Shown: positions 1 through 12,718 of the stretch, piece after piece
Layout: the number at the start of each line of letters is the position of its first letter
Position numbering within the stretch: position 1 is the stretch's first letter
NCBI RefSeq assembly: GCF_020405205.1
Contig: NZ_CP084471.1
Coordinates: 1 to 64,000 of the forward strand
Direction of reading: 5' to 3'
Source: Natrinema salinisoli
GTDB taxonomy: Archaea > Halobacteriota > Halobacteria > Halobacteriales > Natrialbaceae
DNA length: 64,000 nt
Notes under the pieces: model-generated
The model's database searches: none
The model's input: the letters and a program-made list of their open reading frames with translations, nothing else
Told to the model about the DNA's origin: nothing
Translations under genes and position numbers: made by a program

Positions 1-1
1 A

Positions 2-224
2 GCTACAGACATTTTCCATAGATAGATATTACAGACGTACGTTACAGATAGTTGTTACGAAGATACGTTACAGACACTTGTCATAGGCTGGTTATTGGGA
101 CAAAAACGCAGTACTGGGGCGTCACAGAAATTTGTTACAGACGTATGTAACAGACGACTGCTACAGATGACTGTGGCATGTTTCTGAAACAGATTTATGT
201 AATAGACGACTGTACGGTCTGTAT
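2..224. repeat. Phased 13-bp repeat array before parA
   Basis: Two blocks of degenerate 13-bp direct repeats lie end to end before parA. Units begin at 2, 15, 28, 41, 54, 67 and 80, and again at 121, 134, 147, 160, 173, 186, 199 and 212. The best units read GTTACAGACGTAT and GTAACAGACGACT, and the core ACAGA is the most conserved part. About 28 bp of weaker sequence separates the blocks. The second block ends exactly at the parA ATG at 225, and the first may run beyond the left edge. Such arrays next to partition genes usually act as centromere or operator sites, or as replication iterons. Which applies here is inference. Confidence 0.8.
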
Positions 225-1220
225 ATGATAACTGTAGTCGTGTACTCCGAATCGGGCGGTACCTTCAAAACCACCACAACAGCGAATCTCGCAGTCAGTC
301 TCGTCCGGATGGGACTGGACGTCTGCGTGATCGATCTCGACCCACAGGAGGGCAACTTGACGAGCCTGTTCGATGTCGGGGAACACCGCAGTGATCCGGA
401 GGCTGATAACCTCGTCAAGCACATCCTCGAGATGCCGGACGGTGATTTCGAGGACCTCATCGAAACGTCGGACGAAGGTGTCGATGTGATCCCGAGCCAC
501 GACATGCTCGGTGACTTCACATCGAATCTCGAGCAGAAGATCGCCTACGAAACGGGCATGAAGAACATGAGCAAAGAGGAGTTCCCGCGGTTTGAGCTCC
601 TCTATGATCTCCTCTGGAACGAACAGGAACTGCATGAGGACTACGATGCCGTCCTCATCGACCCGAACGCTCGAGCGGAGGACCTGCTGTACAACTCGAT
701 CTACGCTATGCGGACGCTGGTTGCGCCGGTCAAACCAGCTGGCAAAGGGAATCTGAGTCTCGATGGCCTCGACGAACTCGTCGGTAACATGGAGCGCAAG
801 CTGGACATCGAGGTCGGCCTTTCTTGTGTCGTTCCCTCCGGTGTCGGCCAGACGAACGCCCACCAGCAGTACTCCAAGCAGTTCAAGAACACCGACGAGT
901 TCGCGACGCCGATTGCAATCCCCGATCGGGAGAGTTTGATGGATACGATGTGGGAAGCGCGGGGTTCGGCGTACAAGGTCCTCGAGGAGCGCTGGAAGAC
1001 CTTCGAAGAAGACGGCGAAATGGTCAGCAGTCCCGGTGAACGAAGCGTCCGTGACCGTGAACTCGAGACGATCCGAGATATACACGAACTCGGCGTGTTC
1101 GTTGCGACGGATACGTTCGACGCCCAAATCGATTCCGAACTCGTACTCGATATTCAGGGCCGCGGAGAGGAACGCTTCGATTTCCGAGATACCACTGAAA
1201 CCGAGGTGGCGACCCAATGA
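225..1220 (+). CDS. ParA-family partition ATPase
   Basis: This 331-aa protein is a ParA/Soj-type P-loop ATPase, expected to segregate a plasmid or element by binding DNA as an ATP-bound dimer. The deviant Walker A loop is at residues 9-17 (ESGGTFKTT), with the catalytic Lys at 15. The signature Lys of the canonical KGGxxKT motif is Ser 10. A Walker A' strand (CVIDLDPQEG) follows near residue 35 and a VLIDPNA segment near 141. The ATG abuts a phased repeat array. The next gene overlaps the stop codon by 4 bp (ATGA), so the two are probably co-translated. Similar loops occur, as I recall, in other haloarchaeal plasmid ParA proteins. Family assignment is firm; the replicon it serves is not known. 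Confidence 0.9.
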   Translation: MITVVVYSESGGTFKTTTTANLAVSLVRMGLDVCVIDLDPQEGNLTSLFDVGEHRSDPEADNLVKHILEMPDGDFEDLIETSDEGVDVIPSHDMLGDFTSNLEQKIAYETGMKNMSKEEFPRFELLYDLLWNEQELHEDYDAVLIDPNARAEDLLYNSIYAMRTLVAPVKPAGKGNLSLDGLDELVGNMERKLDIEVGLSCVVPSGVGQTNAHQQYSKQFKNTDEFATPIAIPDRESLMDTMWEARGSAYKVLEERWKTFEEDGEMVSSPGERSVRDRELETIRDIHELGVFVATDTFDAQIDSELVLDIQGRGEERFDFRDTTETEVATQ

Positions 1221-1669
1221 AAGATGGCTCTGGGGATCTTGATTTCGGCGACAGTGGTAGCAGTGAGGAGGAGACAACCGACTCCGAACCGCCGGGTGGA
1301 AAGATCGACGACAGCCAGCCGGATCGTAGCCGATCGGGATCGTCGTCAACTCGGTCGGACCCGACGCCCGATCAGCCTGGCACATCGTCGACGTCGACCA
1401 ACGAGTCAGAGCAGGACGAGCACAAGTACCCGTATTTCGTCCGTCGGAGCAAGGTGCTCGACGAGCGAGACGAACGAATTGAGGCCCATCTTCGGGAAGT
1501 CGTTACCAACCAGGAGTCGGACTTCCGAAGTGAACTCGCCGACGAACTCGAGACGAACGGTGACATTCCGAAATCGGACGCACGTGAATTCGCGCTCCTG
1601 TATGCGTTTGAGAATCCAAAGGGAGTTGCCGAGTTGATGCGTGAGGAAGGGTTTGGCGAGCTTGACTGA
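1217..1669 (+). CDS. Small acidic ParA-partner protein, hypothetical
   Basis: This 150-aa protein has no family I recognise. Residues 1-75 are low-complexity and rich in Asp, Ser, Glu and Pro, so probably disordered. Residues 76-150 look like a compact helical domain that starts around YPYFVRRSKVLDERDERIE and ends in FENPKGVAELMREEGFGELD. Its ATG overlaps the parA stop (ATGA), the usual arrangement for a ParB-like partner or adaptor, but no ParB N-terminal domain or HTH is evident. A role as the DNA-binding or activating partner of the ParA is inferred from position alone. Confidence 0.75.
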   Translation: MKDGSGDLDFGDSGSSEEETTDSEPPGGKIDDSQPDRSRSGSSSTRSDPTPDQPGTSSTSTNESEQDEHKYPYFVRRSKVLDERDERIEAHLREVVTNQESDFRSELADELETNGDIPKSDAREFALLYAFENPKGVAELMREEGFGELD

Positions 1670-2470: not shown

Positions 2471-4429
2471 CTAGATATCTGTGAGGAGGTTGTGGTCCGC
2501 GTCGATGGCCTGCGCGTCCTCGTCTAGCAGCGCCACAATGAGATACGGAACGTGTAATTCGAAGTACTCGACGAGCGACGCGATCCGTTCGGAATCGATC
2601 GCCTCGAGGGAGTCGAGCAACATGAACGGGACCGTCTCGTACACGTCGTGGACGAGGTAGCCGGCCAACGCGAACACGAGCCCGGTCACCTCTCGTTCGC
2701 TTTCACTCAGGTGGTCGATCGTGTCTTCATAAGCTGCACCCTCGTTGGTACTGCGAACGATCTTAAGATCGAACGATGACTTCGAGATCTTCCGACGGCC
2801 CTCCCGGACCTCGCGAGTGGTCCGATCGATCCAGATGCGGTCGAGATTGTCGTAACCAAGCGTCTCACGCAGGTTCTCCATGTGTTCGTTGAATGCCTCG
2901 ACTGCATCGGCTTCGATCTGATCAATTCTCGTGCGAAGGTCTGTCAGCTCGTTCGTCACATCCTCACGACGCGCTTCGAGTTGGTCCTGTTCGTCGAGTC
3001 TCTCTTCGATCGTGGCGATTTCGTCTTCGATCTCGTCGCGCTCTCGCTCCTTGCGTTCGAGTTTGAACTCGAGTTGGTTGACTTCTTTGTGCTGCTCGAG
3101 GATTCCGCTGTACTCCTCGGTCTCGAGTTTGTCAACCTCGGCCTCGAGGTCATCTATTTCGTCGGTCAGCACTTCACGTTCGTCAGTGAGTTCCTCGATT
3201 CGGTCGTTCCGCTGTTCGATCTCGTCACCGATCGACTCGAGACGTTGCTTCGTCTGCCGGTACTCGGCCCGGTTTTCGTTGATCTCAGATAGTGTTTCCC
3301 GCCGGTCCGTGAGATCGCCATTGATCTCAGATCGTTCTTCGAGTCGATCCTGGCGTACGGTTCGGAGTTGTTTGATCGTCGCCTCAATCTGTTCGCGAGC
3401 TACCGACGAACCACAGGTCCAGCAGGTGACCGTCTCAGAATCGTCGAGTAACTGATCCGTGACCGGTCCATCGTCGTCGGTCCGATCGTTCGCAAGGACG
3501 GAGTCGGGATCGTCGAGGAGCTGTTCATTGAACTGGATCGTACTCTGGAGTTGTGAGATCTCGTCGGAAAGGTCCGCTTTCTCTTCCTGAAGCGTCTCGA
3601 TCTCGGCCTCGAGGCGGCTAATATCGGTCTCGCCATCGGTCGAGAGCGATTCGAGTCGATCCCGAATTTCGTCCCGTTCCTCTTTCAGTGCATCGACACT
3701 TTCCCGTTCCGTTTCGATTTGATCGCGAACCCGTTCGAGTTCCGATCGTGTCTCGCGTAGCTCGTCAAGTTTCGATTCGAGTTTCGACTTCTCCTCTCGT
3801 CGCTGTTCGACGTCGACGTTCGCGTCCTCGAGTTCAGCGCGAGCCGTTTCGAGTTCGTCCTGTAGCGTTTCGATTTCGTCGGTAATCTGCGTCCGCTTCG
3901 CCTCGAGGTCGGGCAGACGTTCTTTCAGCGATTCGAGTTCCTCGAGTTGCTCGTCGAGTTCTCGCTTTCGTTGCTCGTACCGTTCGATCTCGGACTTGAT
4001 TTCAGCGGTATCGACCGGCCGCATGATCAGTTCGCGGAGGTCGTCGCCGCTCCTGACAGCGCGGCGCGCCTCGTTGGATTCGAGTAGAAACGCGAACAGG
4101 TCCGCGAGTTCCGGATCATCGAGGTAGGGATTGCCCTCGGTGGCGACGGTCCCAGCTTGCCGCTCGAGTCGCCGTCGATAGCTCTCGTCGCCGAACTTGA
4201 GGGTTGCACTCCCCTCGTCAGCATCCGCTTTGAGACTCACCTGATCGCTTCCAAGCGCCGCCATGATACCCTGCAACAGTGACGTACGGTTGGTTGCATT
4301 TCTCCCAGAAAGGATCGTTGCTCCTTCTTGGAAAGAAACTTCCGTCTCGTCAATACCGCCGATATTGGTGATAGAAAGCATTGCTTCTCCCGGAATTTCT
4401 GGGGCCTTCTCATCTACTCTACTTGCCAT
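2471..4429 (-). CDS. Archaea-specific SMC-related (Rad50-like) protein
   Basis: This 652-aa protein has a Rad50/SMC layout. The ATPase head begins near ITNIGGIDETEVSFQEG. Long heptad-rich coiled coils cover roughly residues 150-320 and 375-520, and a zinc hook CWTC lies between them. The C-terminal head carries a Walker B-like VPFMLLDSLEAID. The P-loop reads SGRNATNRTSLL, so the usual GKS/T lysine is Arg. I recall this as a feature of haloarchaeal SMC-related proteins encoded beside rdfA, such as the Haloferax volcanii Sph3 type. The start at 4429 was chosen because longer forms run into rdfA, which ends at 4515. The 85-bp spacing and shared strand suggest co-transcription. A part in cell shape or nucleoid organisation is known for relatives and inferred here. 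Confidence 0.85.
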   Translation of the reverse strand: MASRVDEKAPEIPGEAMLSITNIGGIDETEVSFQEGATILSGRNATNRTSLLQGIMAALGSDQVSLKADADEGSATLKFGDESYRRRLERQAGTVATEGNPYLDDPELADLFAFLLESNEARRAVRSGDDLRELIMRPVDTAEIKSEIERYEQRKRELDEQLEELESLKERLPDLEAKRTQITDEIETLQDELETARAELEDANVDVEQRREEKSKLESKLDELRETRSELERVRDQIETERESVDALKEERDEIRDRLESLSTDGETDISRLEAEIETLQEEKADLSDEISQLQSTIQFNEQLLDDPDSVLANDRTDDDGPVTDQLLDDSETVTCWTCGSSVAREQIEATIKQLRTVRQDRLEERSEINGDLTDRRETLSEINENRAEYRQTKQRLESIGDEIEQRNDRIEELTDEREVLTDEIDDLEAEVDKLETEEYSGILEQHKEVNQLEFKLERKERERDEIEDEIATIEERLDEQDQLEARREDVTNELTDLRTRIDQIEADAVEAFNEHMENLRETLGYDNLDRIWIDRTTREVREGRRKISKSSFDLKIVRSTNEGAAYEDTIDHLSESEREVTGLVFALAGYLVHDVYETVPFMLLDSLEAIDSERIASLVEYFELHVPYLIVALLDEDAQAIDADHNLLTDI

Positions 4430-4514
4430 GAATTCTATCTTTCGCTCCACATACATAGGTATTTTCGTTCCACTTGCGTGTGGGGAGACAGCTGGAAACC
4501 GGTCGACCGAGACG

Positions 4515-5159
4515 TCACCTCTCACTGGCGCCCAACCGCTTGCAGTCACAGGACTGCTGATCAAGCAAGTCTCTGATGGTGTATTCCTGAAAACAGTCCT
4601 CACAGGTCACCGTCACTGAGACGTTCACATTGAACTCTCCAATTTCGAGTATTCCTTTGCGATCGAGTTGATCGACCGTGTCTGCCGTTACTACCGCTGT
4701 CCTGTTCTGGAGCGCACCGAGTTTTTCGGCACTTCTCTCGAGTCGTTCCTCGTCACTGGGCGTCTCGACTGACGCGTCGAGACACTTCGTTAGATGGTTA
4801 TACACTGTCTGGTGGGAGACAAAGTCGGATTCGACGTCTTCGACCGGAACGCCGTCGCGCTGGAGGTGTTTTTTCGTTTCGATACGTGTTCCGCTCGTGA
4901 TGTCGTCGCTCGTGAGCAGCCTGTACGTGTTTTCGACCTCCCCCTCTTTCCGGGGGACATTCGCGTTTGTAAGTGCGGTTTCCAATATTCGGTGGTTCAC
5001 GTACGTTGCGAGTTCGCGCGTGCTCCGTTGCTCGTCGCCGTCATCGGTCCAGTACTCGACGAGTGCCTTGTCGAGAGCCAATAGGTCGTACTTCTTAGCA
5101 ATCCGACCAAGCTTGCAGTCGCAGGTAATCTCCGCTTCCTCTGATTTACGTTCGGTCAC
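4515..5159 (-). CDS. rdfA: RdfA-family rod-determining factor
   Basis: This 214-aa protein resembles the haloarchaeal RdfA family. The N-terminus has a CDCKLGRIAKKYDL segment, followed by a conserved core with GEVENTYRLLTSDDITSGTR and ESDFVSHQTVYNHLTKCL. The C-terminus has a small Cys cluster: CEDC, then CDC just before the end (CxxC...CxC), probably a zinc site. In Haloferax volcanii, RdfA is needed for rod-shaped cells. The gene is followed on the same strand by the SMC-related ATPase, the arrangement I recall from chromosomal loci. Its presence beside plasmid-type genes suggests an accessory copy. The role in this organism is inferred. Confidence 0.8.
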   Translation of the reverse strand: MTERKSEEAEITCDCKLGRIAKKYDLLALDKALVEYWTDDGDEQRSTRELATYVNHRILETALTNANVPRKEGEVENTYRLLTSDDITSGTRIETKKHLQRDGVPVEDVESDFVSHQTVYNHLTKCLDASVETPSDEERLERSAEKLGALQNRTAVVTADTVDQLDRKGILEIGEFNVNVSVTVTCEDCFQEYTIRDLLDQQSCDCKRLGASER

Positions 5160-8969: not shown

Positions 8970-10450
8970 TGCTGGCTGAATCGAATCTCCTTATCGTCGG
9001 CATCACTGCGATTTACCTCCTGATCGTTCTCGGTGTCGGTCAGCTCGCGGCGCGCACGACTGGGACCTCCCGTGAGGACTACCTGATGGCGGATCGGTCG
9101 TTTAGTACGATCATCCTCTTGGCAGCGCTATTCGCCACGAACATGACCGCAGTGGTGATGATTGGAGCGCCGGGGCTGGCGTATAACTCCGGTGCAGGTG
9201 CGTTCGGGTTCTTCGTCGTCCTGTTCGCATTCCTCTTCCCCGTCTTCCTGATGACGGTCGGCTACCGGATTTGGATGGTCGGTAAAGAGTTCGGCCACAT
9301 TACGCCCGCACAGATTATCAACCACCGGTGGGACGCGGAGTACCTCGGCGTGCTCGCTATGGGAATGTTCACTGTCTGGACCGTTCCGTACCTCCTCGTC
9401 GGCGTACAGGGAGGGGGGATCGTCTTCGAGGCACTGACGGATGGACTGGTCCCCTACTGGGCAGGCGCTGCAATCGTCCTCTTAGTGGTCGGGGGCTACG
9501 TCTATCAGGGCGGAATGCGCGGGACTGGTTGGACGAACGCGTTCCAGGGAGCCGTTTTCATCGCGTTCCTGCTCGCGATGTTCGTCTGGATTCCGTTACG
9601 GGTTGGCGGGTTCGCCGAGGCGACGAACGCCGTCGCACAGATCAACAACGGCGCGTTCCTGAACCGCGCTGGGATTCCGCCGTTCCAACCGCGAGTCTGG
9701 TTCTCGCAGGGGATGATCGTTGCGTTCGGCGCCTTCATGTTCCCCCACCTGATCATCCGTTACATGACCGCTAAGTCCGTGAAAAATCTCCAGCAGACCG
9801 CCGTCCTCTACCCCGTCGCGGTCATCGTCGTCTGGGTTCCAGCAGTGCTGCTCGGGTTCTGGGGGATCGCCCTGATCCCAGACCTGGCGAACCCTGATTT
9901 CACCCTGCCAGCGTTGGTTGACGAGTTCCTCCCCATCTGGGTCATCGGCTTCGCTCTGGCCGGAATTCTCGCTGCGCTCATGTCGAGCCTTGACGGCCAG
10001 GTACTCACCCTTAGCACCTTCTTCACCGAGGATGTGCTCCGGCCGTTCTTCGATGTGGACGAGTCCAAAGAGATCCACTACACGCGGTTCTTCCTGATTG
10101 CGATCTTCCTCGCAGCGTTTGCAGGCGCTATGCTCACCCGGGATACAATCGTCGACACCGCGACATTCGCGTTTTCTGGATTCGCACTAATGTTCTTCCC
10201 GATCTGCTCGGCGTTCTACTGGCGTCGATCCAATAAGTACGCCGCGTATGCGGGCCTTATCTGGGGATTTGTTGGGCTTTGGGCGTTCGAGCTAGGACTG
10301 CTCCCGGGGAATCTCACCTTCGGGTTCCTGCCGTTCGTGCCACTCGCCGTCAGTCAGCTCGTCCTGATGGTCGTCGTTGCCTATTCGACACCAAAACCGC
10401 CGGAAGACAAGGTATCGGAGTACGAACGACTCTTCGAAAACGTCTGGTGA
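8969..10450 (+). CDS. Sodium:solute symporter (SSS family)
   Basis: This 493-aa integral membrane protein has about 13 hydrophobic helices, and its N-terminal pattern (TGTSREDYLMADRSF) is typical of the SSS/SLC5 family. Members couple sodium influx to uptake of proline, pantothenate, acetate or other small acids. Located between the aryl-acid ligase and the ring hydroxylase, it probably imports the aromatic acid used by this pathway. It is translationally coupled to the small two-helix protein before it. The exact substrate cannot be read from the sequence. Confidence 0.9.
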   Translation: MLAESNLLIVGITAIYLLIVLGVGQLAARTTGTSREDYLMADRSFSTIILLAALFATNMTAVVMIGAPGLAYNSGAGAFGFFVVLFAFLFPVFLMTVGYRIWMVGKEFGHITPAQIINHRWDAEYLGVLAMGMFTVWTVPYLLVGVQGGGIVFEALTDGLVPYWAGAAIVLLVVGGYVYQGGMRGTGWTNAFQGAVFIAFLLAMFVWIPLRVGGFAEATNAVAQINNGAFLNRAGIPPFQPRVWFSQGMIVAFGAFMFPHLIIRYMTAKSVKNLQQTAVLYPVAVIVVWVPAVLLGFWGIALIPDLANPDFTLPALVDEFLPIWVIGFALAGILAALMSSLDGQVLTLSTFFTEDVLRPFFDVDESKEIHYTRFFLIAIFLAAFAGAMLTRDTIVDTATFAFSGFALMFFPICSAFYWRRSNKYAAYAGLIWGFVGLWAFELGLLPGNLTFGFLPFVPLAVSQLVLMVVVAYSTPKPPEDKVSEYERLFENVW

Positions 10451-10462
10451 GCAGTCACAACA

Positions 10463-10615
10463 ATGAAGGGAGTACGAGTTATCATGCTAAACGAGAACTC
10501 ACGCATGCGAGGAACTGTCCAGTACTGCGAGCAGAGACAGCGTGCTAGCCAAACTGAAGAACACGTAGGTGGCCGTGAGATGATCGCAGCCTATCGCCGA
10601 GGAGGGGTGTTCTAA
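10463..10615 (+). CDS. Possible 50-aa small protein
   Basis: A short open frame starts with ATG 12 bp after the symporter stop and ends 3 bp before the monooxygenase ATG. The predicted peptide is basic and has no recognisable motif. Its tight fit between two co-directional genes is the only support. The GGAGG near its end could be the ribosome-binding site of the following gene. It may equally be a chance frame. Confidence 0.25.
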   Translation: MKGVRVIMLNENSRMRGTVQYCEQRQRASQTEEHVGGREMIAAYRRGGVF

Positions 10616-10618
10616 CTG

Positions 10619-12718
10619 ATGAACGTCGCAACTATCGGGGGTGGTCCCGGCGGACTATACGCGAGTCTCCTCCTCAAACGGAGCCATCCCAGCTGGGACG
10701 TGACCGTCTATGAACGGAATCCAAGGGGGGTCACATATGGCTGGGGGATTGTGTTTCCGAACCGAACGCTCTCGAACCTTGCCGATGCCGATCCGGCCTC
10801 TCACGAGGCGATAACCGAGACGTTCGACCGCTGGGATCCATTTGACATCATTACCGATGATGATCACTTCCGGTGCGACGGAAATACGTTCGCGAGCATG
10901 ATGCGGACCGATCTTCTCTCCGTCCTCGAGGAGCGCTGTCGTGAAGTTGGTGTTGAGCTAGAGTATGAGTCGGAGATAACGGATCCCACCGCTATCGCTA
11001 CCGAGGCCGATCTCTGTATCGCGGCCGATGGGATTCACAGTCACACGCGCGAGGTTTTTGCCGACGAGTTCAGCACGGAGATCAACCGAGGGAGCGTGCG
11101 GTTCTCTTGGTTCGGGACCGACGCGGAGTTCGAGGCGCTGACCCACATCTTCGTTGAGAATGAAGACGGTATCTGGTGTGCTCATACCTATCCCGGACCA
11201 ACGAGCACATTCATTGTCGACTGTGATGCCGAGACGTGGAAGCGTTCTGGGATCGCCGAAATGACCGAAGACGAGTACCTTGCCTACCTTGAGGACGTAT
11301 TCGCCGATCAGCTAGATGGACACGACATAAAGTCGCAGCAGGATCGGTGGCAGCGGTTCCAGACGGTAACGAACGAAAACTGGTACCACGACAACGTCGT
11401 ACTCGTCGGTGACGCCGCTCACACCGCTCACTATTCGATCGGCTCCGGGACAACGCTCGCCATGGAAGACGCTATCGGATTGATGGAGGCCTTCGAGAGT
11501 CACGACGAGATCGACGCTGCGCTCTCGGCCTACGAATCGGCCCGAAAACCGTTCGTCGAAACCTTGCTGTCGGCGGCCGAGCGGAGTCGGATTCATTTTG
11601 AGGATATCGACCGCTATTATGACCTTCCGCCTCGGCAGTTCGCGATCCACCATCTTACCCGGAGCGGACGGCTCACGTACGGTAGCCTTCAACGCCGTGA
11701 CCCAACATTCACGGATGCGTTTGACGAGTGGTTCGTCAAACGGACGCCGGGCGGTACGGAGACACGACCGCCGGCCCGCCAGCCGGTTCGACTCGCCGAT
11801 ACTGTCGTCTCAAACCGGTACGTCCGCGCCCTCGAACCCACGTCGTCCGCCGAAGGGGGAATGCCGTCGGCTGCTCAACTGTCCGCATTCACCGCGGCTG
11901 CGGACGAGAGACCGGGACTACTGCTCACAGAACCGCTAGCCGTCGCTCCCGAAGGACGGCCGGTGATCGGCACGCCGGGACTTTACACCGAGGATCACGG
12001 CGCTACGTGGACCGAGGCCGTTGAAACCGTGCCGGATGGAGTTACGGCCGGTGTTCATCTCACGCACGCCGGCGCAAGCGGTGGGCGCGAACCTCGCGTT
12101 TTCGATCAAGGCGACCGTACCGAACGAGAGTCGACGTGGGCGCCACGCCTCAGCGACGACTATCCGGTTCATCCGCAATCGTTCGACCCTACCGAAATGA
12201 GTTCGGCGGAACGGAACGCCGTTATCGACGATTTCGTCTCAGCGGCGCGTCGGGCCGCCGACGCCGACTTCGGGTACGTTCAGCTCCAGGCGGCCTCCTC
12301 GTCAGTCCTGTCGCAGTTCCTAACAGCTCCGGACATACCGTTCGAGGACGGCATCCAGTTCGTACAGACTGTCGTTAGCGATGTCGCCGACGCGGTACCG
12401 CCCGGAACGCCGCTCGGAGTAACGGTTCCAGTCTCGGACAGCGACGAGTGCGGACTCTCGCTCGAGGAGGCGTTTGTGGCCGTTCGCAAGTTTTCAGCGG
12501 CGGGCTGTGACGTCGTAGCGCCGGTCGATACCACGACTAGCGAGCGTGGACTGGCCGAGAAAGGACCAAGCGATTTCAGCGATGATATTAGAAACGAGGT
12601 CGATATCAGTACGTTGGCGACTGTACCAACCGCATCCGCCGATAAGGTGAACACGCTCGTCGCAACCGGGCGTGCAGATCTCTGCGTAGTTCAGGGGACA
12701 CCGTCTCGCAACGATTGA
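10619..12718 (+). CDS. Salicylyl-CoA 5-hydroxylase-like FAD monooxygenase with OYE-like half
   Basis: This 699-aa protein has two parts. Residues 1-370 are a class A flavin monooxygenase: the dinucleotide fold IGGGPGGLYAS is at residues 6-16 and the second FAD motif VVLVGDAAHTAHYSIGSG is near 260. This resembles salicylyl-CoA 5-hydroxylase and 2-aminobenzoyl-CoA monooxygenase. Residues about 390-699 follow the Old Yellow Enzyme barrel. There the usual HGYLLSSFLSPL-type segment reads ASSSVLSQFLTAP, and the active-site residues I would expect are not evident. It should hydroxylate an aryl-CoA, here probably to gentisyl-CoA. It lies downstream of the symporter genes. The role of the second half is unclear; bifunctional relatives keep a recognisable reductase. 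Confidence 0.8.
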   Translation: MNVATIGGGPGGLYASLLLKRSHPSWDVTVYERNPRGVTYGWGIVFPNRTLSNLADADPASHEAITETFDRWDPFDIITDDDHFRCDGNTFASMMRTDLLSVLEERCREVGVELEYESEITDPTAIATEADLCIAADGIHSHTREVFADEFSTEINRGSVRFSWFGTDAEFEALTHIFVENEDGIWCAHTYPGPTSTFIVDCDAETWKRSGIAEMTEDEYLAYLEDVFADQLDGHDIKSQQDRWQRFQTVTNENWYHDNVVLVGDAAHTAHYSIGSGTTLAMEDAIGLMEAFESHDEIDAALSAYESARKPFVETLLSAAERSRIHFEDIDRYYDLPPRQFAIHHLTRSGRLTYGSLQRRDPTFTDAFDEWFVKRTPGGTETRPPARQPVRLADTVVSNRYVRALEPTSSAEGGMPSAAQLSAFTAAADERPGLLLTEPLAVAPEGRPVIGTPGLYTEDHGATWTEAVETVPDGVTAGVHLTHAGASGGREPRVFDQGDRTERESTWAPRLSDDYPVHPQSFDPTEMSSAERNAVIDDFVSAARRAADADFGYVQLQAASSSVLSQFLTAPDIPFEDGIQFVQTVVSDVADAVPPGTPLGVTVPVSDSDECGLSLEEAFVAVRKFSAAGCDVVAPVDTTTSERGLAEKGPSDFSDDIRNEVDISTLATVPTASADKVNTLVATGRADLCVVQGTPSRND

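Follow-up and report, generated by a model that had tools for sequence, protein, structure and literature searches.

One described partition system, delta-omega-parS of plasmid pSM19035, consists of a ParA ATPase, a small partner protein and contiguous short repeats lying over the parA promoter; the repeats are 7 bp long and of mixed orientation, and four or more of them are needed for function (PMC9499535). Each dimer of a ribbon-helix-helix (RHH) ParB binds one 7-bp repeat. Activation of ParA takes a minimum of four such repeats in a row, contact with ParA is made through the N-terminus of the protein, and RHH ParBs repress their own promoters and do not spread (PMC9499535). Among archaea, the SegAB system of Sulfolobales pairs a ParA with an overlapping gene and has a palindromic 13-bp motif, TCTAGASTCTAGA, upstream of segA (PMC5120986, PMC12284271), with sites scattered over the chromosome (PMC12284271), and plasmid pNOB8 carries a partition cassette with a ParA-type motor, AspA-ParB-ParA (PMC9178275), which has three genes, with AspA as the centromere binder and an atypical ParB. 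In 2016 the appearance of archaeal plasmid centromeres was counted among the open questions (PMC5120986), and a 2024 review discusses how archaea segregate their DNA by way of SegAB and of ParA/ParB homologues, with no haloarchaeal centromere mentioned in the portion of its text considered here (PMC7617429). Here we analysed a stretch of 64,000 nucleotides from Natrinema salinisoli (the window), bases 1-64000 of contig C3 (113,814 bp), whose first base is C3 base 1 and which opens with an array of 13-bp repeats in front of a parA gene and a second, overlapping open reading frame (ORF2). No open-access paper describing the array was found; the subscription literature lay outside the search, so priority is not certain.

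It is near certain that the array, its conservation, its uniqueness and the operon are real. An earlier note on this DNA had offered the array as either the centromere of the replicon or the operator of parA; as a hypothesis this is well supported, and the anatomy suggests both at once. We consider it probable, from the sequence and its arrangement, that the array acts as plasmid centromere (parS) and as operator of the parA-ORF2 operon, and very probable that the ORF2 protein is what binds it. The locus resembles delta-omega-parS in its three components and their placement, but its half-sites alternate at 6/7 bp on a strict 13-bp period in longer arrays, the sequence of its partner protein shows no detectable link to RHH proteins, its ParA is without the signature lysine and the repeat core varies by protein subfamily. 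Two marks of the RHH-ParB subgroup (type Ib) were found, a ParA without an N-terminal helix-turn-helix (HTH) and contiguous short repeats overlapping the par promoter; by analogy, the module would operate as type I systems with short-repeat centromeres do, although strict membership fails on the signature lysine. With SegAB it shares a ParA, an overlapping gene and a palindromic 13-bp motif, but the sites here are tandem, have other cores and lie mostly on plasmids, and no SegB-type match for ORF2 was found in Pfam, NCBIfam or PDB sequences. Like pNOB8 it is an archaeal cassette with a ParA-type motor, here of two genes with a long 13-bp lattice.

The 13-bp array in front of parA

The elements of the locus are as follows (positions in the window).

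1 to 89, no strand: array block 1, a 13-bp lattice in phase 12 mod 13, with starts in a position weight matrix (PWM) scan at -1, 25, 38, 51, 64 and 77, continuing to the left at -40, -27 and -14
90 to 117, no strand: inter-block spacer containing AAAAACGCAG, read from the sequence
118 to 208, no strand: array block 2, phase 1 mod 13, with unit starts at 118, 131, 144, 157, 170 (degenerate), 183 and 196, from PWM scan and pattern search
183 to 199, plus strand: putative operator/promoter overlap, TCTGAAACAGA followed by the TATA-like TTTATG (194-199), at about 31 bp upstream of the start codon of parA
225 to 1220, plus strand: parA, a Walker-type ATPase of 331 amino acids (PF13614 AAA_31, 2e-18; PF01656 CbiA, 1e-13; phrog_164 ParA-like, 6e-32)
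1217 to 1669, plus strand: ORF2, candidate centromere-binding protein of 150 amino acids, overlapping parA by 4 bp

The earlier note had described fifteen 13-bp units lying in register in two blocks, from base 2 to the parA ATG. The array itself was confirmed: direct reading gave nine ACAGA cores, at 5, 31, 44, 70, 124, 137, 150, 163 and 189, with steps within each block that are multiples of 13, and the lag-13 self-identity of window 1-224 was 0.483, far above that of dinucleotide shuffles (0.260 ± 0.031). The shuffle maximum was 0.394 over lags 5 to 60 (2000 shuffles), and the four top lags of the array were 13, 26, 39 and 52. The two blocks are indeed there, but the PWM scan placed them 2 bp out of phase (starts at 12 mod 13 for the first and at 1 mod 13 for the second), with a 41-bp step between them. 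Base 2 is not the beginning. PWM-positive unit starts at -40, -27, -14 and -1 prolong the array in phase across the contig end (C3:113774-113814 into the window), and the joined end-to-start sequence of C3 aligned smoothly with relatives L002 and L074 across the junction. From these two results C3 is evidently circular, with a numbering that starts inside the array. The total is about 17 units, 15 of them PWM-positive and about 2 degenerate, spanning C3:113774-113814 plus window 1-208. That the array ends exactly at the ATG was an overstatement, since strong units stop at 208, unit 209-221 is weakly recognisable and TTTATG occupies 194-199; the best unit of block 2, 183-195 (TCTGAAACAGATT), adjoins this TATA box. 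An AAAA-CGCA-type element recurs between the blocks in several relatives, and the spacer at 90-117 has a similar one.

We searched the 4.7-Mb genome for ACAGA-N8-ACAGA-N8-ACAGA with up to 2 mismatches. Seven of the 8 matches fell in this array (among them C3:113780-113810, 5-35, 18-48, 31-61 and 44-74), and no comparable array was found by this search elsewhere in the genome. The PWM scan detected no second in-phase array on C3.

Conserved period, symmetry and changing core

ParA relatives were drawn from genome contigs, whole genomes and plasmids, which gave 101 loci with non-identical ParA, in protein families A, B and C, and 116 control segments from those loci. Periodicity was scored over the 234 bp preceding parA, as z of the 13+26-bp signal, with a cut-off of z > 3. 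This cut-off was passed at 98 of the 101 loci (A 60/60, B 8/8, C 30/33) against 1 of the 116 controls, and the strongest lag was 13 or 26 at 96 loci against 4 controls. The sampled loci cover several haloarchaeal families, and the period, which the earlier note had expected to see in close parA relatives, persists to about 40% ParA identity. In the 600 bp that precede parA the density of ACAGA/TCTGT was 21.4 per kb, as against 1.4 in parA and 2.2 farther upstream. When 391 genomes of the class were sampled, 221 had a family C ParA; a profile of ORF2, run against 295 genomes from across the phylum, matched 29, and every match listed lay in the window's own order. No relatives of C3 ParA were found in viral contigs. 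The C3 array differs in length from those of its closest relatives by exactly 26 bp, that is, two units. In the array upstream of parA at locus L190 a 26-bp double unit, TACTACTATCCCCTACTAATGATAAT, recurs about four times in near-exact form, which suggests a recent expansion by two units per step. On pNRC200 of Halobacterium (L073, 181711-188697) the parA-ORF2 pair is VNG_RS11335/VNG_RS11340, adjoining the gas-vesicle gvp cluster, with ORF2 annotated as a hypothetical protein.

The unit has an internal symmetry that the earlier note did not contain. Expectation-maximisation over the 60 family A loci gave the consensus TCTGT-W-ACAGA-YR, an 11-bp palindrome plus 2 bp, and ACAGA takes turns with its reverse complement at steps of 6 or 7 bp, so that each 13-bp unit holds two half-sites. 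Raw spacing counts placed both core orientations on one lattice: ACAGA-ACAGA spacings of 13, 26 and 39 bp were found in 97, 86 and 66 pairs and TCTGT-ACAGA spacings of 6, 19 and 32 bp in 34, 23 and 28 pairs, ACAGA-TCTGT spacings were 7, 20 and 33 bp, and other spacings of the core were nearly absent. In most single units one half-site is well preserved and the other is loose. A column-permutation test for palindromy was positive at 27/59 loci in family A, 1/8 in B and 11/32 in C, and we therefore claim a palindrome for A and some C arrays only. Thirteen base pairs make 1.24 helical turns and rotate each unit by about 86 degrees, in agreement with the remark that the spacing is not a helical repeat. 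The conclusion drawn there, that the binder forms filaments or spreads, is a weak one, and it is not needed, because non-spreading RHH ParBs bind such contiguous promoter-overlapping repeats (PMC9499535).

The spacing is fixed and the core changes with the protein subfamily: ACAGA/TCTGT in A, ATTAGGT in B, AGCTATAC and AGCTA variants in C, with CTTAG, TTGAA, TCTAA, TACTA and GTTCA elsewhere. One genome (G138) has five modules with five cores, AGCTATAC, CTTAG, TTGAA, TCTAA and TACTA. In the window's own genome the core is ACAGA for the C3 array and CTTAG for that of plasmid C2, and a further core is used on the chromosome. The CTTAG arrays at L143 and L187, in two different genomes, go with one and the same ParA/ORF2 subtype, and GTTCA goes with another subtype, again in two genomes (L191, L194). 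Across 97 loci the 5-mer similarity of arrays fell from about 0.5 to about 0.22 once the identity of the ORF2 C-terminal domains was below 50%, and a coding control over the same contrast went from 0.41 to 0.35 (Mantel p 0.001). This covariation, which is correlative, is what would be expected if the ORF2 protein read the core and packing geometry set the period.

The second plasmid of this genome, C2 (400,082 bp; L143, G000:C2:1-1509), also has a parA preceded by a 13-bp array, of core CTTAG, and its first base lies about 220 bp upstream of that gene; its contig start, like that of C3, falls beside or inside an array. C2 also carries a decayed family A module (L184, G000:C2:147800-150700), with a recognisable ORF2 sequence and no open parA reading frame. 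Such decay might be expected if live modules that share a core were unable to persist side by side.

ParA, the ORF2 protein and the promoter

The C3 ParA belongs to the ParA/MinD superfamily of P-loop ATPases, with AAA_31 and CbiA above the Pfam cut-offs. Its P-loop starts near residue 9, which leaves no N-terminal HTH extension, and its Walker A box reads S-G-G-T-F-K-T-T (residues 9-17), with S in place of the signature lysine. Every full ParA that was read had E-[S/A]-G-G-x-x-K-[S/T] and not the deviant Walker A sequence KGGXXK[S/T]; the regular expression of our automatic locus rule presupposes the former motif, and the other loci came from a protein search. McdA, another ATPase of this type, positions carboxysomes and not DNA, and does so without a DNA array. 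It also has serine for the signature lysine, in SGGQGKT (PMC9178275 Table 1) as against SGGTFKT here, and so provides a precedent for a ParA-type ATPase without that residue (PMC9178275).

ORF2 was found after parA at 99 of 101 loci by the automatic rule and by eye in L143, usually with an overlap of 1-4 bp. The protein has a conserved N-terminal K-x-G-[ST]-G tail (K-x-G-S-G on C3), an acidic, variable, disordered linker and a helical C-terminal domain with the motifs [YLI]-P-Y-x-x-x-R and V-x-K-x-D-A-x-E, and its conservation was seen in 34 loci of family A and in 41 of mixed families. Comparison with Pfam, NCBIfam, PHROGs and PDB sequences gave chance-level matches only and no credible family; none was to a ParB family, so that the ParB with CTPase and HTH domains that marks HTH-ParB/CTPase ParABS systems was not found here. 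AlphaFold2 predicted confident helices in the C-terminal domain; for a mixed-family prediction, five rows taken from annotated records were excluded. The family A model is all-helical. In the model of a family C partner two helices (68-85 and 91-104), with a predicted local distance difference test (pLDDT) score above 90, come after an extended stretch, and these elements have the same order in RHH proteins. In Foldseek the best structural neighbours of the family C model were plant TCP domains, MazE and ParD, the latter two RHH proteins that appeared in the VIA re-ranking; all were weak (Z 2.4-2.9), and with every Z below 3 we did not accept them as proof of an RHH fold. Nothing convincing was found by Foldseek with the family A model, and hhalign of the ORF2 profile against eight haloarchaeal RHH_1 proteins, a small and uniform reference alignment, detected no relation. 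We judge the chances that ORF2 has an RHH fold to be evenly balanced.

At the promoter, the last strong palindrome (183-193) runs straight into TTTATG, and the array ends on the parA TATA box. A distance of about 31 bp between TATA box and ATG is in keeping with leaderless transcription in haloarchaea, and this sequence predicts that the parA transcript is leaderless or near-leaderless. TCTG...TTTA was present at the promoter in 81 of 101 loci, with TCTG mostly 41-43 bp upstream of the ATG. GTCTGAC occurred within 70 bp before parA at 77 of 101 loci, and most relatives show GTCTGAC-N6-TTTA at this place; common as GTCTGAC is, we rejected it as a universal promoter word, and it is absent from the window.

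A probable centromere and operator, and rival readings

If the array is both centromere and operator, the ORF2 protein would occupy alternating half-sites cooperatively, probably as dimers. With successive units about 86 degrees apart, this would build a superhelical protein coat with about four units per turn, and the coat would show many N-terminal K-x-G-[ST]-G tails to ParA on bulk DNA. The tails would drive the ATPase cycle of ParA, and plasmid copies would be moved and spaced in the manner of the diffusion ratchet known from other ParA systems. At the last unit the coat would cover the TATA box and repress the operon. The 13-bp geometry would be set by protein packing and the core read by subfamily-specific residues, in which case co-resident plasmids with different cores would not compete.

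Several points weigh against this proposal. The ParA lacks the residue by which the deviant Walker A box is defined, the signature lysine, as does McdA; ORF2 has no profile link to RHH proteins and its structural matches are weak; and palindromic symmetry is clear in pooled family A and several C arrays and not in B. Three C-family loci were below z 3, and the 101 loci are not independent, about 17 Haloarcula loci being near-identical copies. Within family A, ORF2 divergence showed no link to array divergence (Spearman 0.09; coding control 0.22). The core is constant there, which accounts for the missing trend, and the claim of covariation rests on contrasts between families because nothing beyond background was seen within this one.

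The array might instead be only the operator of the parA-ORF2 operon, bound by the ORF2 protein or by ParA, with the true centromere elsewhere. It abuts the promoter, its most conserved element overlaps the TATA box, and pNG700-like loci of Haloarcula keep about 2-3 units upstream of parA, all of which an operator would explain. Yet many arrays measure 230-330 bp, far more than repression requires, the number and phase of their units are kept, units change in whole 13-bp steps, and C3 offers no second in-phase array for the centromere, so that we regard this reading as unlikely. We give still less credence to binding of the array by ParA itself or by a host protein in place of ORF2. Type Ia ParA proteins do bind their own operators, and the ORF2 fold is not established as DNA-binding, but the C3 ParA has no N-terminal HTH extension with which to do so, and a host protein would not account for a core that tracks the plasmid's protein subfamily or for five cores per cell.

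Least probable is that the repeats are iterons of a replication origin. Tandem short repeats beside a replication or partition gene would suit such a role, and orc1/cdc6 adjoins parA in one Haladaptatus plasmid. On C3, however, orc1/cdc6 (104724-105956, Cdc6_C domain) lies about 8 kb from the array, which is thus not adjacent to the initiator gene as the repeats of Orc1/Cdc6 origins are; several ACGACGGAAACGTGGGGTG repeats, entirely unlike the array core, stand on both sides of orc1/cdc6, and chromosomal copies of parA also have arrays (L021, L185). The orc1/cdc6 region with its ACGACGGAAACGTGGGGTG repeats is the likely replication origin of C3. These repeats flank the gene in opposite orientations at L071 ~10098-12100 (C3 ~104.1-106.1 kb).

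On the reading as centromere plus operator, hundreds of haloarchaeal replicons, the model plasmids pNRC200 and pNG700 among them, would have in the array a concrete centromere candidate that can be predicted. Its constant spacing, variable core and matching small protein would form a natural recognition code in which to study how sister systems avoid cross-talk, and could in practice predict plasmid incompatibility groups and serve in haloarchaeal vectors as a stability cassette. The module also provides a ParA that lacks the signature lysine, of interest for the control of hydrolysis in such ParAs. We suggest, tentatively and with more doubt than confidence, that haloarchaea have a partition class of their own, with a ParA motor lacking the signature lysine, an undescribed binder family (possibly not RHH), a fixed 13-bp geometry and a core rewritten in each subfamily, which would serve as a plasmid identity code that lets four or five replicons coexist.

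Farther into the window, at 2471-5159 on the minus strand, a gene for an archaea-specific SMC-related protein (NF045487, 5e-205) lies beside an RdfA homologue (PF21811, 3e-69). Both were rejected as parts of the module, the SMC-like gene being present in the flanks of 2 of 37 relatives and RdfA in none. RdfA is the rod-determining factor, a cell-shape regulator, and is here plasmid-borne.
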